Part shown: positions 540 to 58,610 of the stretch, in pieces
How positions within the stretch are numbered: position 1 is the stretch's first letter
Layout: every line of letters begins with the position of its first letter
Source: Siphonodentalium dalli
Taxonomy: Eukaryota; Mollusca; Scaphopoda; Gadilida; Siphonodentaliidae
Direction of reading: 5' to 3'
Length of the DNA: 64,000 nucleotides
NCBI GenBank assembly: GCA_032622095.1
Contig: CP136062.1
Location: 51,723,349-51,787,348 of the forward strand
Made by a program: the position numbers and the translations under genes
The notes under the pieces: generated by a model
What the model saw: only the letters and a program-made list of their open reading frames with translations
Told to the model about the DNA's origin: nothing
The model's database searches: none

Positions 540-1310
540 TCAAAAACATTTGATAGCTTTAGTCATGCAAAGAGTAGAATCCAAAATGGCCGCTGGCAGC
601 ATGTTTTAATGCCGAATAACCCCAAAATGACTCGTTCCCATCTACATGTACATGTCAATTTTAACAGCCATGACAAATTTTATGATGATCAGACTAAAGG
701 TACGACCTGTAGCCCGTGCTAAAGGATTTAGTCATACAAAGAGTAAAATCTAAGATGGCTGCTGGCGGCCATGTTTTTTGGCCGATTGACCCCAAAATTA
801 CTCGTCCCCATCTACAAGTCAATATTAACACCCACAACAAATGTCATGATGATCAAATGAACAGTACGATCTGTAGCCGTGCTAATGGATTGAATTTTGA
901 AATCCAAGATGGCCGCTGGCGGCCATGTTTTTTTTTTCCGAATGACCCCAAAATGACTCGTTCCCATCTACATTCCAATTTCAACAGCCATGACAAATTT
1001 CATGATGATCCGACTAAAGGTACGACCTGTAGCCCGTGTCAAAGGATTTAGTCATGCAAAGAGTAAAATCTAAGATGGCTGCTGGCGGCCATTTTTTATG
1101 ACAATAAGACGAACAGTACGGCCTGTAGCCCGTGCTAATGGATTGAATTTTGAAATCCAAGATGGCCGCTGGTGGCCATGTTTTTTTTTCGAATGACCCC
1201 AAAATGACTCGTTCCCATCTACATGTCAATGTCAACATCAATGACAAATTTTTTAATAATCGGACCAAAGGTATGAACTGTAGCCCGTGCTAAAGGAAAT
1301 TGTTGACGAA
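540..1310 (+). repeat. ~165 bp tandem array D1 (AAGATGGC family)
   Basis: About five head-to-tail units, each with AAGATGGCYGCTGG, GAATGACCCCAAAATGACTCG, TTCCCATCTACATGTCAAT and CGACCTGTAGCCCGTGC. Two monomer types alternate: one with GGATTTAGTCATGCAAAGAG, the other with GGATTGAATTTTGAAATCC, suggesting a dimeric higher-order unit. Ends at a GAAATTGTTGACG phrase followed by an (AC)n microsatellite at 1315-1332, as do some bivalve pearl/Helitron-like elements. Confidence 0.85.
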
Positions 1311-1683
1311 TCACGCACACACACACACACGCGCACGACGGATACCAAGCCATGGCAATAGGCTAGCTCAAAGTAAAGTTGAGCTAAAAAGTGTACGTTG
1401 GAATGGTCTATTATTGGTTTGGAGGAATGTACAGGTACCAGAAGGAGATAGACGACAGATAATACAAGTACGTACAGAAGGAACAATTATCTGAACATTA
1501 ACTACTAGGGCTGTATCAACACATTGTGAATTCAATGAATCACAATACACTTTCAAAGGATACACATACCTGTACCACATCAATTGTATCATGATAGAGG
1601 AAATCAAATAATTTCTGAAGATGGGCATGTGCATAATAGTGTAACAGAATGAGATAGATAAGTGCAGGAGTCGCACCGAAAGT

Positions 1684-1800
1684 TGGCAGCACCCGGAATC
1701 CCAAGCCGGTCACCCATCTAAGTACATGTACTAACCGGGCTCGGTGTTGCTTAACTTCGGTGATCACACAAAGCATCTAACGACCGTGACCAAGAGATCT
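1684..1800 (-). pseudogene. 5S rRNA-derived sequence (5S pseudogene or SINE3 head)
   Basis: On the minus strand the core TGATCACCGAAGTTAAGCAA is followed by GAGCCCGGTTAGTAC, then TTAGATGGGTGACCGGCTTGG and TTCCGGGTGCTG. This is the animal 5S rRNA internal promoter and 3' half. Six extra bases (ACATGT) split AGTAC|TTAGATGGG, making an AGTACATGTACT palindrome inside box C, and the 5' third of 5S is not recognisable. It is therefore not a functional 5S gene; either a pseudogene or the head of a 5S-derived SINE (SINE3 type), since another ~120 bp of unfamiliar sequence follows its 3' end. Confidence 0.75.
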
Positions 1801-2239
1801 AGACCTCTCGATCAGAGAAGTCATTGGCCTTCTATATTTACAACGCGACCGCTACAATAGCAACACATGCAATGTTCTCTCAGGTATACATGTACATGTG
1901 TATTATGTGTGATTGACTCATCTAACTAACTACATGTATTCACTGAATTTTAGTTTAACATGTACAGTACTCCATCTCCAATTACAAACATGTTAGTTCT
2001 GATAATTCAGGTTGTATTCATTGGAAATCAACTAATTTAGTATATCATGATATGTATCGTATCGTGTATCATGTATTGTGATTCATATAGTATCATGGCC
2101 AAGTATATCATTACAGCCCTAATAACTACTCATCTATGAGTATTTAGTATAGAAAATAGTTTAAGTCAGATAATAACCTCGTGGTCAGGCATTCGGAACA
2201 ATGCACAAGCCACCGGGGGAAATTACCAGATATACCAAT

Positions 2240-3375
2240 ATACATCAATGCTCTAAATAATTGATTCCTTAACCACAGCAGAATTACGGGTAACTTTTCA
2301 GGATTTAGTCGGAAATATGGCTTGTTGCCATTCATTGGAAAGCTCTCACCGAGAGTTTTCCGATGAATGGCAACAAGTGATATTTCCAACTAAATCCTGA
2401 AAAGTTACCCATAACTCTGCTGTGGTTAAGGAGTCGATTACTTAGAGCATTACTGTATACTATCACAGTGACAAGGTTCACAAGACAGATTTTGGGAAAA
2501 AACATACCATCTATCATACGCATCATACATGTACATGTAGATCTCAAAATTTTTCTTCTCAGTCACAATATGTTTCATTGTGTCTTATTGGCCATGAACT
2601 TTCCTTTCTTTTGTTGCATAATATGATAGTATCAAACGAAGGGAAGTCAAGATATCATATCGAAAACTAGCAAAACCTATCGATGAAAAGCGGTGGTCGG
2701 TTTCCGGTAAGTAGTGATTATACATGGATATCAATTCAATTATTATGATCGCAATTACGAACTTGCGAATTCACCATACGATATGTTGACTTCACTTATA
2801 TTGACTTTGTCAAGTTATATACAAAACTAGAGAAAATTTTATGCCCTATAACATACTAGTACACTGGGGCATATTTTGGCTGAGTTGACTATGTTTTAGA
2901 ATTATTGAGGATATTAGGCGGACAGGGAGACTGTCGACCAGTAGATATTGTAAGTTTTCGGTACGATGTCTCGACTTCCCTTCGTTTGATTTTATGGAAT
3001 TATAATGTACATGTACATCAAAAGAAAGGAGATTTCATGGCCAATAATAAGACATATTGAAACATATTGTGACTGAGAAGAAAGATTTTTAGAATCTATG
3101 AGGAATATCGGACTTGTATTAAAACTGTGTCACTGGTATACATATACAGTATACAGTAAAATTTTCCCTAAATAATCGACTCCTTAACCACAGCAGAATT
3201 ATGGGTAAATTTTCAGGATTTAGTCGGATATATGGCTTGTTGCCATTCATCGGAAATCTCTCACTAAGAGCTTTCCGATGAATGGCAACAAGCCATATTT
3301 CCGACTAAATCCTGAAAAGTTACCCATAATTCTGCTGTGGTTAAGGAGTCGATTAATTAGGGCATTACTGTATAT
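2240..3375. repeat. 1.1 kb near-palindrome with a family A MITE in each arm
   Basis: The segment reads as its own reverse complement over most of its length. Outermost are two family A foldbacks (2240-2458 and 3152-3373). Inward, CTGTATAC...CAGTGACA is matched on the other side. Then 2541-2632 matches 2991-3110 (TTTCTTCTCAGTCACAATATG). Then TCAAACGAAGGGAAGTC at 2633 pairs with the same phrase inverted, ending at 2990. The centre is near 2810. Confidence 0.8.
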
Positions 3376-3454
3376 TGGTTATGCTATTTTTCCCCAGGGG
3401 CCTGTGGAACAGAACACACTCTTATGGGCTACCTCCAGGCCTGACAATATGCTG

Positions 3455-3575
3455 CAGGACATTTGTAGAATGAGGTCCCCAGAGGGTGAATTTAGTGATG
3501 CTACCCCACACAGAGGGCTATCATCACCAAATTATCATCTGGGGACCTCATTCTGCATGGCCTCATTGATTCCTG
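3455..3575. mobile_element. Family C hairpin, truncated
   Basis: A GAATGAGGTCCCCAGAGGG arm and its inverted partner around a short loop, as in the complete family C elements, without their outer ends. Confidence 0.7.
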
Positions 3576-4132
3576 GATAATTTTCATTGATATCAACTTA
3601 TATGGAATCATTTCAGGATATCAAATTATTTCTCAGTGCTACAGGAACTAGTACATACATGTAAACACAGGTATGCAAGGGCAAAAATTCAATTCTCATT
3701 TTTATTTTGGGCACAGTTTCATATTTTGGCAACAGCGTTTACCGACTAATTTGGGGGAATAAAAGGCCAGATAACGATATCCATTTACATGTACTTTTGC
3801 GATCATCTATCGGTGATTGTAACAGGTCCACATGCACTGTATCTACTGTAGGATTTGTGTGGGTTAGCAGGCAACAAGTCAATAAGGAACCTTCTGGGAA
3901 TTAGCAAATAATTTACTTCCAATAGACCAGCCTGTCCTATACCATGCACTCTAATTATATTTGGTTATAGCTTTATAGGTTTTATAATTATTTGGGGCAT
4001 CAATAGCACATGTACATCACTTTCAACAGCTGACAGTATGAGGCATATGACATTGTTTATTTTATACCCGTACATGGAGAATAGAACATGAAATTTCAAA
4101 ATAAGTTTCACTGGTTCAAAATCATATATGTA

Positions 4133-4436
4133 CAGTAATGCCCTAAATAATCGACTCCTTAACCACAGCAGAATTCTAGGTAATTTTTCAGGATTTAGTC
4201 GGAAATATGGCTTGTTGCCATTCATCGGAAAGCTCTCAGTAATGCCCTAAATAGTCGACTTCTTTACAAAAGCAGAATTATGGGTAACTTTTCAGGATTT
4301 AGTCGGAAATATGGCTTGTTGCCATTCATCGGAAGAGCTTTCCGAGGAATGACAACAAGCCATATTTCCGACTAAATCCTGAAAAATTACCCATAATTCT
4401 GCTGTGGTTAAAGAGTCGATTATTTAGGGCATTACA
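4133..4436. mobile_element. Family A foldback, one half copy followed by one complete copy
   Basis: 4133-4236 is the left half of the palindrome; it is interrupted at the hairpin tip by a second complete copy (4237-4436) starting again CAGTAATGCCCTAAAT. This suggests insertion of one copy into another, or abortive replication. Confidence 0.85.
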
Positions 4437-4514
4437 TGTAAGGCCCTTTTTTATATAAACACTTGGTTAGCTAGCAGATATTTTCCTGTGAAAGTTGGGT
4501 TGGCCTAAATGAAA

Positions 4515-5350
4515 GTGTCAATGACACTGTAGCTCAACATGGAAAGGGAATAATTTCATGTGTTACACTACAGTCCACAGTCAATGGAGTGATTTAGGAA
4601 TGTGTTAAGTTGAAAGGCCTAGTTATGCATAGAGTAAAATCCAAGATGGCCACTGGCAGCCATGTTTTTTTGCTGAATGACCCCAAAAAGATTCGTTCCC
4701 ATTTACCATGTCATTGTCAACATCCATCACAAATTTCATGATGATCCGACAAAAGATTCGACCTGCAGCCTGTGTCAAAGGATTTAGTCATGTAAAGAGT
4801 AAAACCCAAGATGGCTGCTGGCGGCCATGATTTTTGGCCGAATGACCCCAAATGACTCGTTCCCATCTACATGTTATTGTTAACATCCATGACAAATTTC
4901 ATGATGATCCGACCAAAGGTACGATCTGTAGCCTGTGCCAAAGGATTTAGTCATGCAAAGAGTAAAATCCAAGATGGCTGCTGGTGGCCATGTTTTTAGG
5001 CCGAACGACCCCAAAATTACTCGTTCCCATCTACATGTCAATATTAACTTCCATGACATATTTCATGATGATCAGATGAACAATCCGGCCTGTAGCCCGT
5101 GCTAATGGATTGAATTTTGAAATCCAAGATGGCCGCTGGTGGCCATGTTTTTTTGCAGAATGATCCCAAAATGACTCGATCCCATCTACATGTCAATGTC
5201 AACGCCCATGACAAATTTCATAATGATCCAACCAAAGGTATGACCTGTAGCCTGTGCCAAAGGATTTAGTTATGCAAAGGGTAAAATCCAAGATGACTGC
5301 CCTTGGCCATGTTTTATGGCCGAATGACCCCAAAATGACTCGTTACCGAA
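4515..5350 (+). repeat. ~165 bp tandem array D2 with its 5' head
   Basis: The head GTGTCAATGACACTGTAGCT is followed by ~100 bp of unique head sequence, then about four AAGATGGC units of the D type. The same head occurs at 7541, 21815, 30690 and (inverted) 55850, so the array is the inside of a dispersed element. Confidence 0.8.
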
Positions 5351-5944
5351 ACGAACTGCCGAAGCGCCTGGTACATACATGTACATGTACTCTAATAATG
5401 TCGTATTTGTTTTATATCTGAAAAGCGGGACAGCGGTCTTTTAAGTTAATTAAAACATTTATTTGTGACACTCACGCCTCACGGTGGTCAATAACAACAC
5501 AGATGCTAACATCTCATCGTGTTTTCAGCGTGTCAAAACATTCGTGATTAACATTCATTACCGCAAAGGGAACAACCGCGACTATCAACACAAAACAATA
5601 GGTCATATTTTATTTTAAACACTTGGGACTTTGTCTCTGCATCGTCCGTTTCTTTTTGGGATGGCCACCACAATTAATCTATATACGGACATGTCTGGAA
5701 AAAACTAGAAAAAAAAATTAAGGAAAAAAACAAAACAAAAATTCCCTTAAAATTGAAGGCGACTTCGATTTCGCCTTAGAGCGACGATAGGGCGAAGTCA
5801 GCGACAGTAAGGCGAAAATCTCGCCTGAGTCGCCTTGTGAGCTGAGGCCTGCTACCGGTAATAAAAACAAGAGCATCGCTAGGGCGTGGCAAAATATGTC
5901 AGTGGTAATTTCAACAAAGGACCATGCTGTACAATGTACATGAT

Positions 5945-9353: not shown

Positions 9354-9433
9354 TACTAGTACCTCTGATTTTCAAAATACAATACCAGGTAATATACCGG
9401 TACGTGTATGATGTAAACTGTCTATGTACATAC

Positions 9434-10775
9434 CTTGTCTGAACTCATTCAACAATGCATGTAACTTGTGATCATCAAAGATGAATATCGGCTGGTGTTT
9501 GTAGAAGTTGACCAGTCGGCTCAGGGGAGTGTTATCATCGGTATCTACGAAAGCCAAGTCCTTTATATTTAGCAAGCCTATGATTTTTTTCGTTCCTTCC
9601 ATTTCCGAATCAATCTCGAAAACTGGAATGCGTGTATAGCCTCTTTTCATTATATCAGACATTGTTTGAAAATCCAAAATTGTATGAATGTCCAGCATAA
9701 ACACATCTTCTATTTTCGTCATAACTTCAACTACTGTTTTCTTAGAGAATTCTAGGGCTCCTGATATTATGTTCACCTCATCTTGTTCAAATTCCCCGTA
9801 CTCTTTGTTGAACTTTATTAATTCTTGAAGCTTTTCTCGATTGTAAACCTGGCCAATTTCTTCTCCAAGAAGCTTATCTAATAACAAACTGATAGGAAAA
9901 GATAGTACGAATGTTAGGACCATGAACGTCTTCGTTATCCATATAGTTTTCGCTCCAACAGATAGTCCATGCCTGGAGCAAATTGCTTGCGGTACAATTT
10001 CTCCGAATATCACAATCCCCATTGTCGCTCCAATAACGGCGAACAATCCATTAGTCAAATCATCAAGAAGGATTGTCAGCGTGTTGTTAACAAGAACATT
10101 GCCTAGCAGTAGCGTGCATAGAAGGAAATTACCCCTTTTTCTTACGGGCATAATAATTTTTGCATATTTTTTCTCATGGGCCGAACCACATTTTTCCACA
10201 AGCTTCAGCTCTGTTTGATCGAGTGCCATCAAGCCTAAGTTCAAACCGCTAAAAAGACCCGAAAGGCACAAGAGGACACATAACATAACAATCTGTATCG
10301 GTATTGGCATCAGGTTTGTTTTCGTTGGTCTGACGTCAGATACAATCATCATCTCAGGAGAGGCACCCTGGTGAATTGGAGATTTCAACTTATCTGATCC
10401 ATTCGTCTGGGCACATATATAATATGTACCTGATTTTTCGAATATGGCATCTATTTCTATCATGGAATCGCTCACGACCTCACTTGTGAAGATACCGGTA
10501 GTATAAACATTGCACGAGTCACCTGGGTTCGTGTTTATATCCGTGGTGAACGACACCGCGGTGTTATTCGTCAAGTCACTCCCAACAATGCGAAGTTTAA
10601 TTGTTTCTCCTGCAAAAACCGACACCGCACCAGACTCCGTTCGACCGGCTTCTGGATCCAGAGAGAATATTGCATCAACTCGAGACACTGACACTCCATT
10701 TTGTACCGTTAAAGTCGAAAAAACGAAGCTAAATTGTAACTGAAATATAAGTAAACACAGTGGGACTATTGCCAT
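9434..10775 (-). CDS. CNNM: CNNM-family metal transporter, first coding exon (partial gene)
   Basis: Plasma-membrane or basolateral Mg2+ transporter/regulator of the cyclin-M (CNNM/ACDP) family. The exon encodes 447 codons plus one base and stops at a clear donor (AAG|GTATGT; intron begins at 9433 and runs left). A hydrophobic signal peptide covers residues 1-20. An extracellular N domain follows (about 21-155), with C89 and C121 and sequons at N70 and N125. The DUF21/CNNM transmembrane domain spans about 157-310: the GLFSGLNLGLMALD motif at 173-186 and the GEIVPQAICSRHG motif at 258-270 are hallmarks. The first CBS motif with GYTRIPVF lies at 379-386, and the exon breaks at FRQ(G), as a large first exon does in this family. 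The rest of the CBS pair and the cyclic-nucleotide-like domain must lie beyond the left edge, because no continuation is visible in 1-9433. The start ATG sits in an AAGATGGC context, with a perfect CRE 17 bp upstream. Which of the CNNM1-4 types it matches was not determined. Confidence 0.95.
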
Positions 10776-11790: not shown

Positions 11791-12250
11791 ACAAGAAAAA
11801 AAGTGGCCGCCCACAAGATGTCGTCCATACTGGCGGCAATATAATATTACATGCGGTTGTATTTTCAACTCGATTCGTTACACTAATATACCACGCTTAT
11901 TAGTAAAAATCCGACAATAAAATCCAAAATGACGGCCAAGATGGCGGCCGAAATGTGAACAATTTCTAAATTTTCGACATTTCACCACCTATCGTTTGTC
12001 TCTGGGAAAACATGGGCATCTTGGGGTAATTTTATAAATCATCTTACAGATGAGTCATCTACTCACACTATGAGACCATAATATGCACTCCTGGCCGGAT
12101 ATTTTTGCCCGCCGATATCATGCACGTTTTTCTAAATGCTGGTATAATTCGGTAAACGCCGAATCGCCGCTAATAACGTAATGTCTGTTTGGAATTAGTG
12201 GGTCTTATCGTTATGATAACTCCACCATGCACATTAATAATGTCAGACAT
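11790..12250. repeat. Diverged AAATCCAAAATGG-type units
   Basis: CCAAAATGACGGCCAAGATGG and a following TTATGATAACTCCACCATGC block recur in changed form at 12780-13080, suggesting an old ~190 bp tandem repeat split by the element at 12263. Confidence 0.5.
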
Positions 12251-12262
12251 TATATGTGGCCC

Positions 12263-12713
12263 GCCATATCAAATCCAGTCGTAAGTCGGGATTTTGTTTA
12301 CCCTGTGCCAATTGATTCTCTTATATATTCGAGTCGACCATAGGTCGTCTCGCATATATAAGAGAATGCATTGGCCTAAATTAATTTACAATTTTAATAA
12401 TTATTTCTTGTATTCTTTAACAATTTTATAATTTCACCCATACAGAGCCCCAGACAAACATGAGCAGACGACACTCTTCTATATGCTTCTGTATATGTGT
12501 GGGGCTCCCTGCAGGGTAATGAATGTTTTTTATTTTATGTCCTAAAAATTGTAAGAAACATTTATTTTAAAAAAATGATAAAAAATTGTTAGGCCAATGC
12601 ATTCTCTTATAATATATGCGAGGCGACCTATGGTCAACTCGCATATATAAGAGAATGCATTGGCACAGGGTAAAAAAAAATCCCGACTTACGACTGGATT
12701 TGATATGGCGGGT
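12263..12713. mobile_element. Double-hairpin MITE with GCCCGCCATATC ends and 11 bp duplication
   Basis: Outer inverted repeats GCCCGCCATATCAAATCCAG / its mirror end at GGCGGGT. The flank CATTATATGTG is present intact on both sides, an 11 bp target duplication, closest to Mutator-like behaviour. Inside are two ~70 bp hairpins of the same CTCTTATATATGCGAG type found in family B, although the outer ends are different. A short unrelated GC-richer segment sits in the loop. Confidence 0.8.
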
Positions 12714-12779
12714 CATTATATGTGTAGGACATACCCCGACTAGGATTCATCTTATATATACTTGAGTTGAGTAATATTC

Positions 12780-16669: not shown

Positions 16670-17370
16670 TAAGAATATGTAAGAGGATAAATGTATTGAT
16701 ACCATTGTTTTTCTGTCAACAAGTTCCAGCATTTTGCACCGTCATTCATTTTTTTTTTCGAACCTCAGATATAACTTTTCCTGTTTGCCTTGACATACTT
16801 ACCAGTAAGACGTTGGATTGAGAAGGGAACAGATATTTGTTTCCTCAATACAGCTTGAGAATAATTCTTAATGTTTTCTTAAATTTTGCTATAAGGGGCA
16901 TTCCAGAAGAAAGTGTTTCTCATCTTATCTGTTATTGAAGACCGTTTTTTTACTGGAATGTTTAGATAAGTCTGCATCGTAAATGCTTTATATTTATTTC
17001 AATTTTCATAAATTACTTAATGATAAGCGCACATCCTGAAGGGAGGGACAGTCACGATAGAGCTTTGACACATGAGACAAACGAGCCATAGTGTGAGTAT
17101 ATTTTAATTTATGATGGATCATATAAACACGTATGAAGCATGTATGTAAGAAAATGTACAGAATTCTGTGCCAACATTATTTAGAGTTTCAATCCACACC
17201 CATTTCAAAGAGCACGTTAAAACAGAAATAATCTAAAACAAAAACGTAATTCAAATAATGTCATTTACGAGGTCTTGCACCTCCTAGGTTTAACTATATT
17301 AATTATATTTAACTATAATAGATAAGATTGTCAGTGCCAATTCCACAACTTCTCTGTTTTTGCAGTCTTA
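16670..17370. other. No recognisable feature
   Basis: AT-rich sequence with no element boundaries or exons recognised. Confidence 0.4.
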
Positions 17371-17374
17371 TTAA

Positions 17375-17636
17375 CCCTTTCAATGACGGGACCTTCTTGA
17401 AATTTTGAGAAAAACCCTGTGCGAATACATTCTCTTATATAAGCGAGTCTCCTTTTGGGAGCGCGCGCCTCGCATATATCAGAGAATACATTGGCCTTAC
17501 AATATTTACCTTGCAAGCCAGTGAATTCACCTATATATGCGAGGCTCCCTATGGGAGACTCACATAAATAAGAGAATGCACTGGCACATAGTTAATGCTG
17601 CACCATAGCACCAGTGCAGTTCCCGTCACGAAAGGG
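17375..17636. mobile_element. Family B MITE, double hairpin, TTAA flanks
   Basis: CCCTTTCAATGACGGGA / TCCCGTCACGAAAGGG ends between TTAA at 17371-17374 and 17637-17640. Two hairpins of the TCTCTTATATAAGCGAG type, with stems that differ from each other in the central CTCCCTATGGGAG. Confidence 0.85.
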
Positions 17637-17640
17637 TTAA

Positions 17641-17978
17641 AATCAGCCAATTGAACAAGCTACACTATCTCTAGTCTGACAAGTTTGAAAATCATTCCTA
17701 TCATCGTCGCTATAAATAGCTTTTCCAGGCATTAAAATTGCTGTAAATGTCCAGCACCGTATTTTTAGGCCCGATTCAAACCCTAAAATTAATGAATGGG
17801 CATTACCCATGTATCCAGTTATCAATGTTCAAACATCACCTAATTATGCTAGAAAACTTTCAGAAATAATTGATAATTTGCTATCCGGGTCAATATATTC
17901 TTGAACATCCAGTAAAGATTTTATGAGTTTTTGGGCGTGAAAGTTACGAGTTGTTGTACTGATGTGAGGTGTATTCGA
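17641..17978. other. No recognisable feature
   Basis: Low-copy spacer between two TTAA-flanked MITEs. Confidence 0.3.
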
Positions 17979-17982
17979 TTAA

Positions 17983-18228
17983 CCCTTTGAGTGCCAGGTC
18001 AATTTTTGTATCAACCCATATACCTTGTGCAAATGCATTCTCTTATATATGCGAGTCGACCATAGGTCGCCTCGCATATATAAGAGAATGCATTGGCCTA
18101 ATAATAATAATAATTATTTTTTTTTTTTTTACTATTTTTTACAATTTTAATAATTTATTCTTATATTCTTTAACAGACTTATTTTGTAGGTTTAGGGCCA
18201 ATGAGATCGGCCCCTGGCACTCAAAGGG
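17983..18228. mobile_element. Family B MITE, single hairpin, CCCTTTGAGTGCCAGG ends
   Basis: TTAA-CCCTTTGAGTGCCAGG on the left and CCTGGCACTCAAAGGG-TTAA on the right. Only one perfect hairpin (GCATTCTCTTATATATGCGA... inverted) near the left end; the rest is poly-T and AT-rich. The subterminal sequence differs from other B elements. Confidence 0.85.
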
Positions 18229-18304
18229 TTAAAGATGCCCCATCCAATGTGACACCGAAATATTCAATTTTACATTGAAAAAGATTACAAAATATGATAA
18301 TTAA

Positions 18305-18546
18305 CCCTTTCGTGGTAGGAGCTGCGCTGGTGCAGTATTAAAGATCCTATGCTAGTGCATTTTCTTATATATGTGAGTCTCCCATAGGGAGCATAGCATA
18401 TATAAGAGAATGTGCTGGCTTACAAGGTCAAGGTAAATATTGTTAGGCCAATGTGTTTCTTATATATGTGAGGATGCCAATGTGAGACTCGTATATATAA
18501 GAGAATGAATTGGCACAAATTTCAGGAAGCTCCAGTCATGGAAGGG
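18305..18546. mobile_element. Family B MITE, double hairpin
   Basis: TTAA-CCCTTTCGTGGTAGGAGC to CATGGAAGGG-TTAA, with two somewhat degraded TTCTTATATATGTGAG hairpins, separated by a TACAAGGTCAAGGTAAATA spacer. Confidence 0.8.
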
Positions 18547-18550
18547 TTAA

Positions 18551-19185
18551 GAACACTTTGCCCACCTGACAAAAATTTAAAACATGTGGGAACTGGAAAT
18601 TTTCAACTACTATCAACACATGAATATTTACGTAATTATTCTTTTATTTTTAGCCATGATCTCATTTATTTATTCTCCATATTACAGGAAAGCAATAATA
18701 TTCATACACATAATAATCTGGCTTGAGATTTCCTAATATTTCAACATGACAGTACACCATTAATAAATATCTAAATACAACATATATGACATAATTATCA
18801 CAAAACAATGATCAAATCATATAATTAGCGAGCTCCAATTTTCTGTTGTCCAAGTTCCATCATATTAAAATAATATAATAAACATGAGAATGTAATTATT
18901 AACGTGTACTGAGAAAAACGCCCCACAGCAAATTAAATGCCTTTCCCACGGCATTGCTTACTGATGTGACCAATTTTGAGGAGTTCAGCATAACCATGGT
19001 AACACAGGCTAGTGACCAATCAGAACAAGCTATTGGAAGCAGCCATTATCACATAGCAGCAAGGTCACATTACTATCTTATATTGTCTCAGTTCAAACTG
19101 AGGAAACTTGGACCAGGATATTCAGAGCTCAGTCAGAACATGAACATAAAGAGAAAGTGACGATAGAACCATATATGGAGGACAT
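18551..19185. other. No recognisable feature
   Basis: AT-rich; a 68-codon plus-strand frame at 18954 has no recognised motif. Confidence 0.35.
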
Positions 19186-19187
19186 AC

Positions 19188-19398
19188 AGTAATGGTCTAA
19201 ATAATCGACTCCTTAACCATAGAAGAATTATGGCTAATTTTTCAGGATTTAGTGGGAAATATGGCTTGTTGCCATTCATCGGAAAGCTCTCACTGAGAGC
19301 TTTCCGATGAATGGCAACAAGCCATATTTCCGACTAAAACCTGAAAAGTTACCCATAATTCTGCTGTGGTTAAGGAGTCGATTATTTAGAGCATTAAT
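19188..19398. mobile_element. Family A foldback MITE
   Basis: Near-perfect palindrome, CAGTAATGGTCTAAATAATC to its mirror at TTAGAGCATTAATG, TA on both sides. The tip is GAAAGCTCTCACTGAGAGC. Confidence 0.9.
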
Positions 19399-19634
19399 GT
19401 AATCACAGCATAGGCTGCTTGCTGTGATCGAGAATTTTATTAAAGCAGAATAATATGATGAGCTTCAAAAAAGCCCAATTCTGCCACTGAATAAAAATTT
19501 CCACGGTCTAGATACAAAATTCAAATAAAAATAAAAAATAAGAAAATGTAATTCAAAATTGTGTCGACAACTATGCTGTAAGAGTTTGTTTTCAGTTCTT
19601 GAGGTTACCGTACCCACTAAATCTAGAAAATTAA

Positions 19635-19886
19635 CCCCTCCATGACTGGAGTTTCCTGATTTTTTGCGAAAGCCCTGTGCCAATGCATTCTCTTATATAT
19701 GCGAGTCTTACAAAGGGAGCGTCGCATATATAGAATAAATTGGCCTAGCAATATTTACCTTGACTGTTAAAGCCAATGCATTCTCTTATATATGCGAGGC
19801 TCCCTATGGGAGACTCTCATATATAAGAGAATGCACTGGCACAGGATCTTTAATGCTGTGCCATCACAGCTCCCGTCAAGAACGGG
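19635..19886. mobile_element. Family B MITE, double hairpin
   Basis: TTAA-CCCCTCCATGACTGGAG to CCCGTCAAGAACGGG-TTAA. The left hairpin has a partly eroded right stem; the right hairpin is intact (ATTCTCTTATATATGCGAGG and mirror). Confidence 0.8.
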
Positions 19887-19981
19887 TTAATGTTGAGCTC
19901 CCATCATGAAAGGGCTAAACCGTCATGAATGCCACATACAAGTTTTTTTTTGAAGTGGCATATGCAGGTTAGGGAAATTAA

Positions 19982-20340
19982 CCCTTTACCCAACAGAACG
20001 GCCCTGTGCCAATGCATTCTCTTATATATGTGAGTCGACCATAGGTCGCCTCGCATATATAAGAGAATGCATTGGCTTAACACATTAAAAATTATTTTTT
20101 TAGGCCAAAATTTTTTTTTTAGGCCAATGCATTCTCTTATATATGCGAGGCGACCTATGGTCGACTCGCATATATAAGAGAATGCATTGGCACAGGGCAT
20201 AACTGTAACCATCACAATGTGGTCAATGAGCCGGTTCCAATGATATCCATATTTGTATGGTTTTATTGAGACAGACCCAAGATAATTTAGGCTGTTGCAG
20301 CTTTATTTGGCCGTTTTTGGCCGGTTTGTTGGGTAAAGGG
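19982..20340. mobile_element. Family B MITE, double hairpin, CCCTTTACCCAACA ends
   Basis: TTAA at 19978-19981 and 20341-20344. Two perfect ~70 bp hairpins near the left side, then a ~150 bp stretch (GGAACC..ATATTTGTATGGTTTTA..CCGTTTTTGGCCGG) shared, inverted, with 57341-57732. Confidence 0.9.
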
Positions 20341-20344
20341 TTAA

Positions 20345-20880
20345 ACACCTCTCTCAACAGGTAGTTAATCTGATTGAAATTACAGCTACCAAATAGCAAG
20401 ATAAGGGCTGTGACATGCATGACAGATCAAGATATCAGGCAGATTTACTCTTGTGTGATATCTGATGTCTACAACTAATAATATATTTAAGAAATGAATG
20501 GCAGTTTCAATATGACGATAGGATTTCGACCACGAGAAAAATTCAGCAAACCATATGAACCCCAAAGAGGTTCAAGCAAAGGATGTTTAACTTTTATCAT
20601 GATCCAAAGCCATAAGCATACTGAATCTGCTGTTAGTTACTTATATATACATGCTTAATAAACTTTTCAAAGCTTAACATTAATAAACTCAATATTTGTT
20701 CAACTTTGGCGAAATATATGTAATGGCTTATGTCTCAATTTAGCCATTCTAATACAAGTGAGCCCAATCACAGAACTTCTGTGGCTCTGTGCCAAGCGTA
20801 ATTAATCATTAGTCTATTACAGTTTTACACTAATATCCTCACTGACTATACAAACCATTCTTATATCCAAATGTTCAAAT
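20345..20880. other. No recognisable feature
   Basis: AT-rich spacer with no exon or element. Confidence 0.35.
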
Positions 20881-20881
20881 A

Positions 20882-21094
20882 CAGTAATGCCCTAAGTAAT
20901 CGACTTCTTAACCACAGCATAATTATGGGTAACTTTTCAGGATTTAGTCGGAAATATGGCTTGTTGCCATTCATCGGAAAGCTCTCCCGAGAGCTTTACG
21001 ATGAATGGCAACAAGCCATATTTCCGACTAAATCCTGAAAAGTTACCCATAATTCTGCTGTGGTTAAGAAGTCGATTACTTAGAGCATCACTGT
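20882..21094. mobile_element. Family A foldback MITE
   Basis: CAGTAATGCCCTAAGTAATC to the mirror end GATTACTTAGAGCATCACTG, TA flanks; tip CTCTCCCGAGAG. Confidence 0.9.
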
Positions 21095-21095
21095 A

Positions 21096-21814
21096 TGTCC
21101 ATAGTGGACTTGTGAAATAATGCAATTAATCACTACCTACAATAGTTCTAGAAGGTACCAGATCAGGTCAACCATGTCATTTCTCAGGCCCGTGTGTATT
21201 GGCATTCAACCTATTTAATTGCGTTCAATCTGTCAGGGAAGTTTTAATCATTACAAAATAATCACGGTACGTTTTCACACAAACACGCGTGAAATTGAGA
21301 TTGAACAGACCTTTTTCCCAGTTCAGATTTCGGATACTTGGTTTGGTGATTTTTGACAAAATAAATCACATGGAATCTATCGACTCACATTTTACGGACA
21401 TCTGTTTGGGAAATAAAACACCACAGCAACCAAAATTAAACCCAATTAAAGTTAGCCGATGCAGAGCTGGAATGCTTCCTTGACGTGTGCCCTAATAATA
21501 AATAATAAAATTTAAATACATATGCATGCATTCTTTTCAAAAACCTTTTGGCCTGAGAAATGGAAAATTTACTTTTCCTGGCCTACATAAAACAACAACA
21601 ACAGTACAATAAGTTCTTTGAATTGGAGAAAAATGGTAAAATTCTTGTATGCATATTAACGGGAGCAAAGGCCTTCAAAGTGGGTTCATATGAGACAAGA
21701 AAACGTTTATAACAGTCTGTAAAATATCTATCATCAACATGTTGTCGACAAATCACTGTAACAGTTTTGTTTACATAATAATGGTTTCAACATGCGAAAT
21801 TGAGTTAATTAATA
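21096..21814. other. No recognisable feature
   Basis: Low-copy sequence, one 64-codon frame without a motif. Confidence 0.35.
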
Positions 21815-22235
21815 TGAAATTGTCAATGACACTGTAGCTCAACTTGAAGTTGAGGAGGAGCAATGAATAGAATGATAATGATGAAGGAAAGTCAAAATAT
21901 TTCAGTGAAGGGCTTGTATTGTGTAGATGAAATTATTTTCATTTAAAAAATTTCACCAATAAATGTGGGCTGAAAGGTGTGCCAATGGATTCACATGTGA
22001 ACTCCAACATGGCTGCTGGCGGCCATATTTTTTGGACATCTGGAGGTCACCTTGAAGATCCATCTGAAGATTGGTGATGATCGGATGAGGGATGTGGCCT
22101 GTAGGGTGTGCCATGTTTTTCAATGAATTTTAGAAAAAAATTGATGGCTCCCATCTAGAGGTCACCCCAAAGATCAATATAAAGATGTGGCCTGTAGTGT
22201 GTGCAAAGGGAAATTGTTGATGGATACACAGATGG
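21815..22235 (+). mobile_element. D-like element with non-tandem body
   Basis: Head TTGTCAATGACACTGTAGCT, then ACATGGCTGCTGGCGGCCAT and GGAGGTCACC..GATGATCGGATGAGGGA, ending GAAATTGTTGATGGATACAC. A relative of the D arrays with a different, CTGGAGGTCACC-containing body, as at 30690 and 59450. Confidence 0.65.
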
Positions 22236-22322
22236 ACACCATGTTCTTCTTAATGGTGACATTTTACAGACTGTCATAATTTTATAACATTCACACACTG
22301 TAAAGTCCTTGGGTCCCTTTAA

Positions 22323-22577
22323 CCCTTCCATCATGGGAGCTTCCTGATATTTTGTGAAAACCATGTGCCAATGCATTCTCTTATATATGTGAGTCTCCCA
22401 TAGGGAGACTCTCATATATAAGAGAATACATTGGCTTAACAATATTTAACTTGACCTTGTAACCCAGTGCATTCTCTTATATATGCAAGGCTCCCTATGG
22501 GAGACTCGCATATATAGGAGAATGCACTGGCACAGGATCTTTATTGCTCCACCGGCGTGACTCCTGCCATGAAAGGG
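22323..22577. mobile_element. Family B MITE, double hairpin
   Basis: TTAA-CCCTTCCATCATGGGAGC to GCCATGAAAGGG-TTAA with two CTCTTATATATGYRAG hairpins whose loops read CTCCCATAGGGAG. Confidence 0.85.
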
Positions 22578-22611
22578 TTAACAATTGGTTTGATATGACA
22601 TAATTTTACAG

Positions 22612-22669
22612 ACAGCCATTCTTAGTCTAGGATGTCAGAAAAGGAAGCACAACCATCAGTGAAACAGGT
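22612..22669 (+). CDS. Possible start exon (MSEKEAQPSVKQ) of an unidentified gene
   Basis: A stretch bounded by an acceptor-like ATAATTTTACAG and a donor CAG|GTAACA contains an ATG followed by 12 open codons ending exactly at the donor. The arrangement (short 5' UTR piece, then start codon, then donor) is like the GOLGA7 start exon. The peptide is hydrophilic and not recognised. No partner exon was found downstream on the plus strand. Confidence 0.25.
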
Positions 22670-22867
22670 AACACTCTACAGTAAACCATGTAATGTGAAA
22701 ATTTGACAGCACAGACCACCCGTCAACAGTGACAGGTGGAAAATTTAATACCTGTTTGTGTTACCACAGAAAGTTAGCTTTCAGTAAACATATATATGTA
22801 GACAGGGGGAGAATATTAAGCACTGGGAAGGCCTGGCATTCTGTAAAATCCAAATTGTCAAGGAGTA

Positions 22868-23040
22868 CAGTAATGCCCTAAATAATCGACTTCTTAACCA
22901 CAGCAGAATTATGGGTAATTTTTCAGGATTTAGTTGGAAATATGGCTTGTTGCCATTCATCGGATATTTCCGACTAAATCCTGAAAAATTACCAATAATT
23001 CTGCTGTGGTTAAGGAGTCGATTATTTAGGGCATTACTGT
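22868..23040. mobile_element. Family A foldback MITE, shortened tip
   Basis: CAGTAATGCCCTAAATAATC and mirror; ~40 bp shorter than the others because the GGAAAGCTCTC tip is missing. TA flanks. Confidence 0.9.
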
Positions 23041-24740: not shown

Positions 24741-25085
24741 CAGCATTATCGATTGCAGATGACACAATCCATGCTAGCACCAAGCGGCACCTGGAAACGT
24801 TGTCCATTTGAAAATAGAATCTCCATGAATAACATTGACACACAGCATCGTAGAAACTGTTGAAATGTTTGACTGGCGCAAAACAAGTAAGTCGACGTCA
24901 ACAACAATCTGTATCCATGGAGACGACACAATCAATGGCCTTTGTTCAACATACATATTTCCAGCTGGAAACATCATTAAGGAATATAATAGGATATGAC
25001 AATTTGATTTATAAATTACAATATACACATGTCGGGTAGGGAAGATAAGTTTGCAATGAGTTGATCAAGCCCATAGAGTAATAAT
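24741..25085. other. No recognisable feature
   Basis: Low-copy spacer before the minisatellite. Confidence 0.35.
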
Positions 25086-25515
25086 ATTACAGAACCCCAT
25101 GAATGTCACAGGACCCCATAAATATCACAGGATCCCATGAATATCACAGGACCCCATGAATATCACAGGACACCATGAATATCACAGGACACCATGAATA
25201 TCACAGGACCCCATGAATGTCACAGGATCCCATGAATATCACAGGACCCCATGAATATCACAGGGCCCCATGAATATCACAGAACACCATGAATATCACA
25301 GGACCCCATGAATATCACAGGACACCATGAATATCACAGGACCCCATGGATATCACAGGGCTCATGAATATCACAGGACCCCATGAATATCACAGGACCC
25401 CATGAATATCACAGGACCCAATGAATGTCACAGGATCCCATGAATATCACAGGACCCCATGAATATCACAGGGCTCATGAATATTCATGCTATGAGTTGA
25501 TCAACCCATAGAGTT
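25086..25515. repeat. 19 bp minisatellite (CACAGGACCCCATGAATAT)n
   Basis: About 20 tandem copies with few substitutions, most often CCC/ACC and ATAT/ATGT. Two flanking ATGAGTTGATCAASCCCATAG phrases at ~25055 and ~25490 bracket the array. Confidence 0.95.
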
Positions 25516-26144
25516 ATGAATATCACAGGACAGCAGAAAAGCAGAATTTTCTCCCCGCTACATTCGCCACGTTAAACTATTGAGGTATATTTATGTGAAT
25601 TCAAACTATGCGTCACTGATATTTTCCTTTGTTAACCTTATATATACCCTAATATAAATGATCACATTATTTAGAACACATTTAGTGCTTTGTAGGGGGT
25701 CAAAAGGGTCTGAGTCAATATAGAATACATATCAGCACTGGCATACTGCTAGTATAAGACTGCCTACATGGACAAAAACAAATCCTAAAGTATTTGAAAA
25801 AATATTTAAATATGTTGTTGGAGACCAATTCTGAATTATACTAGTACATGTACATGGACAACAGTTAATTGTATGGAATTAGAATCTGTGATTCATCGAA
25901 AAGCATGGTAGGCATCAGATATAGGCAAATGGTCTCAATATATTATGCCTAACACAAGCCAAAGCTTCCAGTGATTCAAGATAAGAATCCATTTATCCCA
26001 ATATTGTTGATGCCTGTGCATTTCACATATATGTACAAAATGATAAATTAGTCATTAAAATGAATAGAACACATTAATGAAAATTTTTAAAGTAATGAAA
26101 ATAAAAGGTCAGCCGACCACAGTGTTCCCCGAAAATGTGGCAAG
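25516..26144. other. No recognisable feature
   Basis: AT-rich, no exon or element recognised. Confidence 0.35.
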
Positions 26145-26830
26145 TCAGTGCAGCTTTGTTAAAGAAATTAAGTCGAAAGGGTTAATAATTCCATCAAAAA
26201 ATATTTTTTCGTAGCGCCGTCCTGAACTGTCAAAAATATTTATGACATCTATACTCCATGGAAGTTCAGAAATTATCAAAAAATGTTGAAATTTTCTAAG
26301 TCGAAAAGGGTTAATAACTCTGTAAACAAATATTTTTTCCGTCATCTATATACATATTGCACATCTTCAATATGTGTGTAACAATACCCTGAAGTTTCAA
26401 ATATCTACGAACAAAACTGTAGGAGGAGTTGATTACACCATGAAGGTACCCTCATACAGAAAATTCTAATAAATGTTGAAATTTTCTAAGTCGAAAAGGG
26501 TTAACAACTCTGTCAAAAAATAATTTGTTCGTCATCTATATACATGCTGCACATCTTCAATATATGGGCAACAATATTCTGCTGAAGTTTCCAATATCTA
26601 CGATCAAAACTGTAGGAGGAGTTGACTACACCATGAAGGTACCCTCATACAGAAAATTAAAAAAAATGTTGAAATTTTGAAGTTTCAAATCTCTGGGATG
26701 AAATCTGTAGGAGGAGATGATTACACCATGAAGGTACTCAAAAGTGTGATGAACGGACGGATGAATGGACGGACAGAGCCCGTTTCTATAGTCCCCCTTT
26801 TCTTTCAGAACGTCGAGGGACAAAAACACA
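26145..26830. repeat. ~190 bp tandem repeat with GGACGGACGGA tail
   Basis: AAGTCGAAAAGGGTTAA recurs at ~26168, 26299 and 26489; TACACCATGAAGGTACC recurs at ~26435, 26628 and 26725. The right end has ACGGACGGATGAATGGACGG, as in molluscan dispersed elements. Confidence 0.75.
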
Positions 26831-34560: not shown

Positions 34561-34672
34561 ATTATTCAATAATAAAATGAATTTCTTTGGTATTTACGAG
34601 ACTACTTGTAGGTTATATTTCAATTTTGATTTCAACATTTTTTCAGTGGAACAAATCAGAAAACAATGTTAA

Positions 34673-34908
34673 CCATTTCATCACAGGAACTGCGCTGGTA
34701 CAGCATTAAAGATCCTGTGCCAGTTCATTCTCTTATGGGGAGCATTGCATATATAAGAGAATGCACTGGCCTACAAGGTTAAGGTAAATATTGTTAGACC
34801 AATGTAATCTCATATATATGTGAGGCACCCTATGGGAGACTCACACATAAGAGAATGCATTGGCACAGAGTTTTCTCAAAATTTCAGGAAGATCCAGTCA
34901 TGGACGGG
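34673..34908. mobile_element. Family B MITE, degraded double hairpin
   Basis: TTAA-CCATTTCATCACAGG to CATGGACGGG-TTAA. Left hairpin has lost much of one stem; right hairpin partial. Confidence 0.75.
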
Positions 34909-34912
34909 TTAA

Positions 34913-41327: not shown

Positions 41328-42239
41328 AGGGCGCATTGTGAGGGAGTACGACGATTGAAAACCGGTACCGTAAACCGGGGTAACTTGAGACAGTTTTTAG
41401 GGTATTTTAAAGCTAACTTGAAATAAATGTTTTGGACCCTAGCCACATCACTTGACACTTCTCAAACAACCTCTCAGCTATTGATTTCTAATAGTTCTAA
41501 CCTGTTGTAGCATTGTAGGTGGCAAAAATTGTGGCCCGAACAGGTGTCTCAAGTCACCCCGGCAATGGGGTGACTTGAGACAGATGCCTCCTCAACTCAT
41601 ATAACATATTGTTCCACTGCCCCAATTCGACTCCAGTAGTAGGACAGACCGATAATGATGCAACAGAGAAAGATTACTTTAATAAGAATTATAATTTAGA
41701 TTTTAGCAATCTATATTTGCTATACACCACTATCCAGGCTTTACGTTAATAATCATGTGTCGATATTAGAATGCAATGCCATTGTATCATGTGATGCTGA
41801 AATTTAATGGATCGTCATGTTCGTACTACTTGTCATCTTAGAAAACAAATAGTATACCTTACCTATTATTTCAGGATTATTATAAACACTTCAAGAAATA
41901 TATAAGAGAACAAACTGGATGGCGCTTAAGTGGCTTTTAATAACACTTTCTTTATTGAATACTCATTGCCGAGTAGTGGCCAAAGAAAATGCTCAGATAA
42001 CTTCAACAAACAGACATAGACCATTTGTATAACTTATTGTCTGAACAGCACCAATGTGTATGAAGCTCGTTCCCCACCAATAAGGCGAGATCACTGATTC
42101 GCTACCATATTATATCCATGCATCCAGCCCGTTCCGTGCATTCAGTGCTACAGGTCAAAGTTCTGTCTGGAGTAATAGCATTCGATTAAATATTCATGAA
42201 TTCCATATTGCTACATCAAATAATTTAGGCTTAGGGTTA

Positions 42240-42820
42240 TAATATAGGGCTCACGTTGAACTAGTGAAAGGGTTATGGTGTTCTTTAGGGTTAGGGCACC
42301 CTTTAGGGTCAAATCTCACCCCCTCAATCACAGGTTTAGATATCGGGTTAGGGTTCATCCTTTATGGACAAAGCGTATCCCCTCGATCACATGTTTAGGG
42401 GGTAGAGCTCACAATTTAAGGGCAAATCCCACTCCCGCAATCACAGGTTTAGGGAAAGGGGCTCATCAGAAATTTATGTGCAAAGCCTATCCCCTCGATC
42501 ACTGGTTTATGGTTAGGGCTCATGTTGATCTAGTGAAAGGGTTAGGGTTTGCTTTAGGGTTAGGGCACCATTTAGCGTCAAATCCCATCCCCTCGATCAC
42601 AGGTTTAGGGTTTGGATTCACCCCTTATGGGCAAATCCCACCCCTCGATTACAGGCTATGGCTCATCCTTTATGGGCAAAGCGTATCCCCTCTATCACAG
42701 GTTTAGGTTTAGGGCTCATCTTGAACTAGGTAAAGGCTTAGGGTTTCCTTTTGGGTTAGGGCACCCTTTAGGGTCAATGCCCACCACCTCAATCACATGG
42801 TTAGGGTTAGGGTTATCGGA
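42240..42820. repeat. ~65 bp tandem repeat rich in TTAGGG
   Basis: Eight or more units with TATCCCCTCGATCACAGGTT, then TAGGGTTAGGGCTCATC and variants. The same unit appears inverted at 43340-43480. TTAGGG is the animal telomere repeat, but here it is embedded in a longer unit and is not a terminal array. Confidence 0.85.
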
Positions 42821-52265: not shown

Positions 52266-55200
52266 TTTAGCTCATCTTTACTTTGTAAAGTTTGAGCTAT
52301 TGTCATGGCTTTGTCGTCCGTGTGTGCGTAAGGCGTCAACAATGCAGTCTACAGGTCGTACCTTTGATCGGATCATTATGAAATTGTCATAGCTGTTGAC
52401 ATCAACATTTAGACTAGAATGATTCATTTTGGGGTCATTCGGTAAAAAAACATGGCCGCCAGTGGCCATCTTGCATTTCAAAATTCAACCCATTAGCACG
52501 GGCTACAGGGCGTACTGTTCGTCTGATCATCATGAAATTTGTCATGGATGTTAATATTGACATGTAGATGGGAACGAGTAATATTGGGGTCATTCGGCCA
52601 AAAAACATGGCGGCCAGCAGCCATCTTGGATTTTACTCTTTGTATGACTAAATTCTTTAGCACGGGCTACAGGTCGTACCTTTAGTCTGATCATCATCAA
52701 ATTTGTCATGGATGTTAATATTGACATGTAGATGGGAACGAGTAATTTTGGGGTCATTTGGCCCAAAAACATGGCCGCCAGCAGCCATCTTGGATTTTAC
52801 TCTTTGTATGACTAAATCCTTTAGCACGGGCTACAGGTCGTACCTTTAGTCTGATCATCATAAAATTTGTCTTGAATGTTGATAATTACATGTAGATGGG
52901 AACGAGTCATTTTGGGGTCGTTCGGTCACAAAACATGGCCGCCAGCAGGCATCTTTGATTTTACTCTTTGTATGACTAAATCCTTTAGCACGGGCTACAG
53001 GTCGTACCTTTAGTCCGATCATCATAAAATTTGTCATGGCTGTTGAAATTGGAATGTAGATGGGAACGAGTCATTTTGGGGTCATTCGGACAAAAAACAA
53101 TGGCCGCCAGTGGCCATCTTGGATTTCAAAATTCAATCCATTAGCACGGGCCACAGGTCGTACTGTTCGTCTGATCAGCATGAAATTTGTCATGGATGTT
53201 AATATTGACATGTAGATGGGAACGAGTAATTTTGGGGTCATTCGGCCTAAAAACATGCGGCCAGCAGCCATCTTGGATTTTACTCTTTGTATGACTAAAT
53301 TCTTTAGTACGGGCTACAGGTCGTACCTTTAGTCTGATCATCATAAAATTTGTCATGGATGTTAATATTGACATGTAGATGGGAACGAGTCATTTTGGGG
53401 TCATTCGGTCAAAAAACATGGCCGCCAACAGGCATCTTTTATTTTACTCTTTGTATGACTAAATCCTTTAGCACGGGCTACAGGTCGTACCTTTAGTCCG
53501 ATCATCATAAAATTTGTCATGGCTGTTGAAATTGGAATGTAGATGGGAACGAGTCATTTTGGGGTCATTCGGACAAAAAACATGGCCGCCAGCAGCCATC
53601 TTGGATTTTACTCTTTGTATGACTAAATTCTTCAGCACGGGCTGCAGGTCGTACCTTTAGTCTGATCATCATAAAATTTCTCATGGATATTAACAATGTC
53701 ATGTAGGTGGGAACGAGTAATTTTGGGGTCATTCGGCCAAAAAACATGGTCGCCAGCAGCCATCTTGGATTTTACTCTTTGTATGACTAAATCCTTTAGC
53801 ACGGGCTACAGGTCCTACTTTTTGTCTGATCATCATAAAATTTGTCAAGAATGTTAATAATGACATGTAGATGGGAACGAGTCATTTTGGGGTCATTCGG
53901 CCAAAAAACATGGCCGCCAGCAGCCATCTTGGATTTTACTCTTTGTATGACTAAATCCTTTAGCACGGGCTACAGGTCGTACCTTTAGTCTGATCATCAT
54001 AAAATTTGTCATGGCTGTTGAAATTGTAATGTAGATGGGAACGAGTTATTTTGGGGTCATTTGGACAAAAAACATGGCCGCCAGCAGCCATCTTGGATGA
54101 CTAAATTCTTTAGCACGGGCCGCAGGTCGTACCTTTAGTCTGATCATCATAAAATTTGTCATGGATGTCAACAATGACATTTGGCCCAAAAACATGTTCG
54201 CCAGCAGCCATCTTGGATTTTACTCTTTGTATGACTAAATCCTTTAGCACAAGCTACAGGTTGTACCTTTAGTCTGATCATCATAAAATTTGTCATGAAT
54301 GTTAATAATGACATGTAGATGGGAAACGAGTCATTTTGGGGTCATTCGGCCAAAAAACATGGCCGCCAGCAGCCAACTTGGATTTTACTCTTTGTATGAC
54401 TAAATTATTTAGCATGGGCTACAGGTGGTACCTTTAATCTGATCATCATAAAATTTGTCATGAATGTTAATAATGACATGGAGATGAGAACGAGTCATTT
54501 TGGGGTCATTCGGCCAAAAAACATGGCCGCCAGCAGCCATCTTGGATTTTACTCTTTGTATGACTAAATTCTTTAGCACGGGCTACAGGTCGTACCTTTA
54601 GTCTGATCATCATGAAATTTGGCGTGGATGTTAATATTGACATGTATATGGGAACGATTAATTTTGGGGTCATTCAGCCAAAAAACATTGCCGCAGCAGC
54701 CATCTTGGATTTTACTCTTTGTATGACTTAATCCTTTAGCATGGGCTACAGGTCATACCTTTAGTCTGATGATCATAAAATTTCTCATGGATCTTAACAA
54801 TGACATGTAGATGGGAACGATTAATTTTGGGGTCATTCGGCCAAAAAACATGGCCGCTGGCGGCAGGGAAGGATCCAGAGATTTTTTGGGGACACCTGTT
54901 CTGTATTTGAGTATGTCCCCATATAAATTTGGATGTTAAAATATTCAGTACTGGACACTTGAGTGTGCAAATAAAGGCTCTATATATAGACTATAACATC
55001 TGCAGGTTGATGATTTGCATTACTAGTAAATGTTGTTGAATTATAGAAAAATTCCTTGAAAATATGGAAAATCCAACTTGAATAAATACTATCCACTTGG
55101 AATTTGGGTCTCCAGAGTTTGGGAGCCCAAACCTGTAACAGGTATCAAAACATCCCTGGATCCTTCTCTGGCTGGCGGCCATCTTAGATTTTACTCTTTG

Positions 55201-55875
55201 CATAACTAAATCCTTTAGCACGGGCTACAGGTCGTACCTTTGGTCAGATCATCATGAAATTTGTCATGGATGTTAACAATGACATCTAAATGGGAACGAG
55301 TCATTTTGGGGCCATTCGGCCAAAAAACATGGCCGCCAGCAGCCATCTTGTATTTTACTCTTTGTATGACTAAATCCTTTAGCACGGGCTACAGATCGTA
55401 CTGTTCATCTGATCATCGTGACATTTGTCGTGGGTGTTAATATTGACTTGTAGATGGGAACAAGTAATTTTGATTTTACTCTTTGTATGACTAAATCCTT
55501 TAGCACGGGCTACAGGTCGTACCTTTAGTCTGATCATCATAAAATTTGTCATGGCTGTTGAAATTGACATGTAGATGGGAACGAGTCATTTTGGGGTTAT
55601 TCGGCATTAAAACATGGCTGCCAGTGGCCATTTTGGATTCTACTCTTTGCATGACTAAAGCTATCAAATGTTTTTGAATTGTTGGAAAACATAGCCGCCA
55701 GCAACCATCTTAGATTTTACTTTTATATACATGTATATACATATATATCTTTTCATGTTGATAAACTAGTATTAGACATTCAACTTTCCACATTCCTAAT
55801 CACTCCATCGACAGTAACACATTAAATTATTCACTTTCCAAGTTGAGCTGCAGTGTCATTGACACTTTCATTAAA
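52266..55875 (-). repeat. Large ~165 bp tandem array D3 with head and tail
   Basis: About 20 units on the minus strand; spacing measured between neighbouring CAGCCATCTTGG words is 164 bp. Most units are of the AGTAAAATCCAAGATGG type; a minority have the TTGAAATCCAAGATGG type. The minus-strand head (GTGTCAATGACACTGCAGCT) is near 55860 and a tail with TTTTAGCTCATC..GAGCTATTGTCATGGC at 52266-52310. One hAT-like MITE is inserted. Open frames through it (60-77 codons) are by-products of the repeat. Confidence 0.9.
54864..55170. mobile_element. hAT-like MITE inside array D3, perfect 8 bp duplication
   Basis: Ends CAGGGAAGGATCCAG and mirror CTGGATCCTTCTCTG; the octamer GCTGGCGG on both sides is exact and is part of the array unit. 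307 bp. Confidence 0.92.
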
Positions 55876-57336: not shown

Positions 57337-57340
57337 TTAA

Positions 57341-57732: not shown

Positions 57733-57739
57733 TTAAATG

Positions 57740-58126: not shown

Positions 58127-58136
58127 GTATGTACTT

Positions 58137-58608: not shown

Positions 58609-58610
58609 TT

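Follow-up and report, generated by a model that had tools for sequence, protein, structure and literature searches.

Non-autonomous transposable elements are usually classified by their ends, with a family keeping its ends and losing its inside. The TU elements of sea urchin are modular foldbacks in which constant arms enclose a variable middle. The closest case that we saw described for the elements reported here is the CMITE group of Acropora corals (Wang et al. 2010, PMC2872659). According to the available excerpts of that paper, its families have a common interior and differ in their terminal repeats. These elements are approximately 100 bp long with an interior of 75 nt, sit between TTAA duplications, and have ends starting with CCCTTT or CCCC; the excerpts also link one family by its TIR to a piggyBac-like transposon and describe CMITE-IN, a new element formed from one TTAA element nested in another (PMC2872659).

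A shared interior behind different TTAA/CCCTTT ends, as these excerpts describe for CMITEs, also occurs in the window, the whole 64-kb stretch of DNA that we analyzed. We infer that the DNA is animal-like from its gene content, a minus-strand CNNM exon at 9372-10775 (Pfam CNNM, E 3.2e-33) and a CoA-binding domain at 62228-62467 (Pfam, E 1.4e-9). Repeats are dense across the window around these genes. They include a 164-bp repeat array with AAGATGGCCGCC-like motifs (52381-55800) and an inverted, shorter array at the window's other end (560-5416), a tandem array with a 19-bp unit (25026-25556), and degenerate repeats rich in GGGTTAGGG-like sequence (42200-42600). A second abundant foldback family, with nine copies of one 122-nt arm, occurs at 19184-19414 and other sites between 2240 and 38023.

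The original prediction was that one hairpin is reused in at least ten copies. We count 18 hairpins of approximately 69 nt, some of them damaged (e.g., H1 and E1), distributed over nine complete elements, A to I, and a fragment, J2. A second fragment, J1, contains half a hairpin, bringing the complete and partial copies in the 64-kb window to 11. Searching with a 27-nt hairpin arm and allowing up to 7 edits gave 38 fuzzy matches, at least one of them spurious (18476-18503), whereas three mononucleotide shuffles averaged 2.0. A strict hairpin pattern matched 7 times, with 0.00 matches expected from 100 dinucleotide shuffles. DNA folding of 5 of the 18 hairpins gave z-scores of −9.7 to −16.0, and element F folded whole reached −23.7. 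With arm matches, strict pattern, and folds all beyond the shuffles, chance palindromes are ruled out. We also rejected an RNA gene, as an Rfam scan of the window returned no match at the gathering threshold. Six of the 11 copies are clustered inside 5 kb (simulated p 0.005 under uniform placement), and the range originally singled out, 17371-20344, includes five of the nine complete elements. TTAA density may explain part of this clustering: it is 10.3 per kb in 17000-23000 compared to 7.2 overall, although the elements' own TTAA raise the local figure.

Four sets of outer ends enclose the hairpins, and all four end types named in the original prediction, including one without TTAA, are present. 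Sets 1 and 2 are each known from one element. Set 1 is that of element A (plus strand, 12259-12713; hairpins 12307-12375 and 12593-12664), which begins with GCCCGCCATATCAAATCC at 12259 rather than at 12263 as previously placed. Its 41-nt outer inverted repeats (GCCCGCCATATC...) differ at 2 positions, and its end motif was found elsewhere in the window at no site. Instead of TTAA, element A has an exact 11-bp direct repeat (11/11) on either side, with the left target-site duplication, CATTATATGTG, at 12248-12258 and the right at 12714-12724. Set 2 is that of element C (plus strand, 17979-18232), which carries TTAA and CCCTTTGAGTGCCAGG at each end (16/16); it retains one hairpin (18029-18097) and a remnant of the second (18191-18203).

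Set 3 (CCCTTTACCCAACA, TTAA) comprises elements F and I and the two fragments; one of its ends is short, and the other measures 147 nt including TTAA. In F (plus strand, 19978-20344; hairpins 20008-20076 and 20123-20191), the left end is the short one, at 24 nt with TTAA, and the right is the long one. Element I, a close relative, is inverted with respect to F (minus strand, 57337-57736; hairpins 57490-57558 and 57638-57706). J1 (minus strand, 58135-58316) consists of half a hairpin (the first half) and the long end, in which 9-10 nt close to the tip are deleted. J2 (plus strand, 58609-58725) has the short end, a single hairpin bordered by CCCTGT on both sides, and 10 nt of the long end; the spacer and other hairpin are absent, and this structure is the expected leftover of a loss between two hairpins. 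A 40-nt set-3 end, 100% identical to that of I, also stands alone at 60080-60119 (plus strand), with unrelated sequence and no hairpin behind it and no second end (up to 3 mismatches) further on in the window. It is either another element type with the same ends or a truncated copy.

Set 4 contains five elements with TTAA and CCCTTYCATGAC-type ends (also CCCTTTCATGAC). On the plus strand are B (17371-17640; CCCTTTCAATGACGGGA / TCCCGTCACGAAAGGG; hairpins 17421-17495 and 17517-17585), E (19631-19890; TTAA at 19631-19634 and 19887-19890; hairpins 19679-19744 and 19772-19840), and G (22319-22581; hairpins 22367-22435 and 22463-22531). Opposite to B, on the minus strand, are D (18301-18550; hairpins 18351-18419 and 18447-18514) and the decayed H (34669-34912; hairpins 34719-34770, damaged, and 34798-34864). 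Immediately after E lies a lone set-4-type end (GAGCTCCCATCATGAAAGGGCTAA, 19891-19920), perhaps the remnant of a neighboring or nested copy. The left subterminal stretch of set 4 differs from the right. Both set 3 and set 4 have brief outer repeats followed by asymmetric sequence up to the hairpins, a layout that is the anatomy of an insert within a host element. At 26176-26504 we also observed AAGTCGAAA(A)GGGTTAA three times, always in one orientation and twice as part of a longer matching stretch (TTGAAATTTTCTAAGTCGAAAAGGGTTAA; TTAACCCTTT), with another interior and no hairpin core.

The end sets are unrelated to one another. In local alignments (300 shuffles each, terminal hexamer removed for TTAA sets), none of the 100 between-set comparisons reached p<0.01, the lowest value being 0.027 (A right vs E left), compared to 24 of the 53 within sets. 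Of the 29 within-set misses, 4 fall in set 3 (out of 6 comparisons) and 25 in set 4 (out of 45); most should involve very short ends or left-versus-right pairs, which have only a short common repeat. All complete elements except A (8 of 9, B-I) have TTAA on both flanks, and 12 of their 16 ends start with CCCT; the four ends of E and H are CCCC, CCCG, CCAT, and CCCG. B-I have the TTAA duplication and, at most ends, the terminal CC[C/T]T by which piggyBac/TTAA MITEs are recognized. The piggyBac label given in the original prediction fits in its TTAA and CCCT, but the 12 ORFs scanned against Pfam, including 11 of the 27 stop-to-stop ORFs of at least 105 aa, contain no transposase domain. Joining the flanks of the nine elements gave no junction-spanning match, and hence no empty site, in the window.

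Inside these ends, the order is constant: CCCTGT, hairpin, spacer, inverted hairpin, ACAGGG. This foldback core is 196 nt long in F and 229 nt in I. The inverted hairpin pair is present in 8 of the 9 complete elements, the exception being C with its remnant. Read as its reverse complement, hairpin 2 has the same loop-adjacent asymmetric bases as hairpin 1 in A, F, and I, indicating that each hairpin belongs to an inner inverted repeat that starts at CCCTGT. With gaps ignored (A2 and J2 have small insertions), pairwise identity among the hairpins of A, C, F, I, and J2, which represent end sets 1-3, is 93-100%, or 97-100% when A1 is left out. Set-4 hairpins are 74-93% identical among themselves and 75-91% identical to the remaining sets. 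The loops follow the ends: the CTCC type is confined to set 4, and GACC occurs in the other three sets.

The spacers are less uniform. Those of A and C, and of A and I, match better than any of 500 dinucleotide shuffles in each test, and the C-I match is less strong (1 and 2 of 500 as high). F and I share a 19-nt match (equaled by 0 of 500 shuffles in one orientation and by 4 of 500 with both allowed), and F has no clear match to A or C (445 and 331 of 500 as high). Set-4 spacers are alike in all ten pairs (0 of 500 each), and kinship between them and the spacers of sets 1-3 is unsupported in 20 pairs compared in both orientations (best A-B, 13 of 500). From these results, part of the spacer accompanies the hairpins in sets 1-3, at least in A, C, and I, and what set 4 has in common with those sets is the hairpins and the CCCTGT edge only. 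The spacer of A additionally contains a small inverted repeat, GAGCCCCA...TGGGGCTC (12443-12510), that we saw in no other spacer.

The inner edge of the core is abrupt. We aligned representatives of six end types (A, the left end of C, both set-3 ends, and both set-4 ends) at the hairpin start. Mean per-position identity is 13-47% outside offset −6; from that position inward, as far as the alignment was displayed, it is 67-100%. A constant edge at six distinct joints points to a unit with defined ends. If the core were a stand-alone transposon, target duplications would be expected at its own ends. However, a search reaching 13 nt from the hairpins found no direct repeat above 4 nt in the eight two-hairpin elements; C, whose second hairpin is lost, and the incomplete J1 and J2 were left out of this comparison. 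Read directly from the sequence, TA lies on both sides of the core in A but not in F, I, or set 4. Spy elements join without duplication and follow an AAA/TTT flank rule; that rule does not fit the core edges, and we rejected a Spy-like joining. Furthermore, no copy of the core is free of outer ends: each of the 11 is bounded by a known outer end on one or both sides.

We lean, somewhat more than evenly, toward a clean-ended cassette that was nested into several elements unrelated to one another and is carried along by their ends. A discrete foldback core (CCCTGT, a 69-nt near-perfect palindrome, a spacer, the inverted palindrome, and ACAGGG) would sit inside at least four short inverted-repeat hosts that are unrelated to each other, and the outer ends of each composite would now let it move non-autonomously. 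A TTAA-specific, piggyBac-type transposase would move sets 2, 3, and 4, and one that makes 11-bp duplications would move set 1. The core itself may once have moved through its own CCCTGT ends. Nesting is the best account because the inner edge is fixed, CMITE-IN offers a described example of a new element arising in this way (PMC2872659), and the model's main difficulty is that a simple nested insertion should leave an inner-edge repeat, of which there is none above 4 nt. The length of a target duplication is a property of transposase superfamilies, so the mover of A would differ from that of B-I; this single element was probably inserted by a different transposition chemistry. The Mutator-like range is 9-11 bp, and from duplication length we would guess that A is perhaps Mutator-like. 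We also entertain a bolder reading, which we regard as rather doubtful: that the hairpin pair passes between elements of different transposase superfamilies, the TTAA type and the 11-bp type, and enters at exact CCCTGT edges with no target duplication. A non-coding passenger would thereby change its carrier, and with it its mover, while its inside stays unchanged.

The main rival to nesting explains the missing duplications. The core itself would never move; instead, breaks left by excision would be repaired by copying from another hairpin-bearing element, template switching at the palindromes would join the core to new ends, and the new end would then be copied across. Inner edges that lack duplications longer than 4 nt are what such repair should produce, J2 and C have each lost a hairpin, so that the palindromes do undergo deletion or recombination, and the two 41-nt ends of A are alike to within 2 mismatches, as copying from side to side would give. 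Template switches should leave ragged joints, yet six end types share one edge. We give end capture a lower probability than nesting. The similarity of tips in three of the four end sets, all with TTAA and CCCTTT-like termini, could alternatively reflect a single MITE ancestor with a constrained core and fast-changing ends, and excerpts of the CMITE paper discuss fast-diverging ends for the coral elements (PMC2872659). Constraint would also account for stem pairing kept through two-sided changes at columns 5/74, 30/40, and 31/39 (four to six sequences each) and, in one sequence, 24/52. All 500 shuffles and the slid controls fall below the observed values for paired cells, cells with two-sided changes, and the covariation score, with cell counts inflated by shared descent; the number of doubly changed pairs, however, is matched by 275 of the 500 shuffles. 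Against a single lineage, hairpins that are 97-99% identical lie behind ends with no detectable similarity across an abrupt edge, and in A the 11-bp repeat is suggestive of another transposase. We consider this descent very improbable.

Old nestings followed by continuing gene conversion could also keep hairpins alike across unrelated elements. Between F and I, 10 of 171 outer positions differ (TTAA included), compared to 1 of 150 positions in the hairpins and CCCTGT (Fisher p 0.012). This contrast comes from a single pair of elements and reflects either conversion or constraint on the hairpins, which would yield the same figure. Because A1 and the set-4 hairpins have diverged, conversion is not general, and we think it unlikely as the overall explanation.

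Returning to the nested cassette, the original prediction of one core inside several end types, beyond the reach of point decay, is borne out by hairpins of sets 1-3 that are 93-100% identical, by the 0 of 100 end matches, and by the abrupt edge. A single outer-end clade with differences due to decay was not seen, in a comparison where sets 1 and 2 are single elements. The proposal that the cassette is mobile or convertible fares unevenly: with outer ends on all 11 copies and no inner repeats above 4 nt, a core mobile by itself is not supported, and the F/I contrast weakly favors a convertible one. Inverted pairing, the 11-bp repeat of A, the sharp CCCTGT edge, and the association of loop type with end set were absent from that prediction. 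Here the inside persists behind ends that probably need different transposases. If this is general, end-based classification divides one passenger among several families, and exchanging ends would be a way for a MITE to survive the loss of its transposase. Because the edge is clean and duplication-free, a whole genome would allow the route of entry to be tested directly.

A hairpin 20-mer and an end 14-mer had no match in the literature text searched, and among the matches listed (titles and abstract starts, from part of the literature) there was no close case besides CMITE. A 22-mer gave 0 matches in viral contigs, 0 in genome contigs, and none in plasmids, and a degenerate pattern gave 0 in viral contigs; these zeros say little because none of the collections is built from animal genomes. 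Compared to known systems, B-I resemble piggyBac/TTAA MITEs in their TTAA flanks (8 of 9 elements) and CCCT termini (12 of 16 ends), and differ in having a core common to unrelated end sets and no autonomous partner seen in the window. Element A resembles Mutator-like MITEs in its long outer inverted repeats and fairly long duplication, but it carries the core of TTAA elements. The modular foldback anatomy is common to TU elements, whereas here it is the inside that stays constant and the ends that vary. Mosquito Mutator-like members have duplications of 8-10 bp in the excerpts of their description, placing the 11 bp of A just beyond that range (PMC5225508). The interior of the CMITEs, as far as the excerpted 60-nt consensus represents it, is unrelated to this core (score 13, with shuffles up to 24), and its best matches in the window, at 13 nt, fall outside the elements. 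Relative to the CMITEs of those excerpts, the hairpins here are paired and inverted, the core alone measures 196 nt in F and 229 nt in I, and one host has an 11-bp repeat in place of TTAA. We conclude that the coral CMITEs, as excerpted, are a precedent for shared insides, and that the paired-hairpin core and the non-TTAA host are new relative to them.
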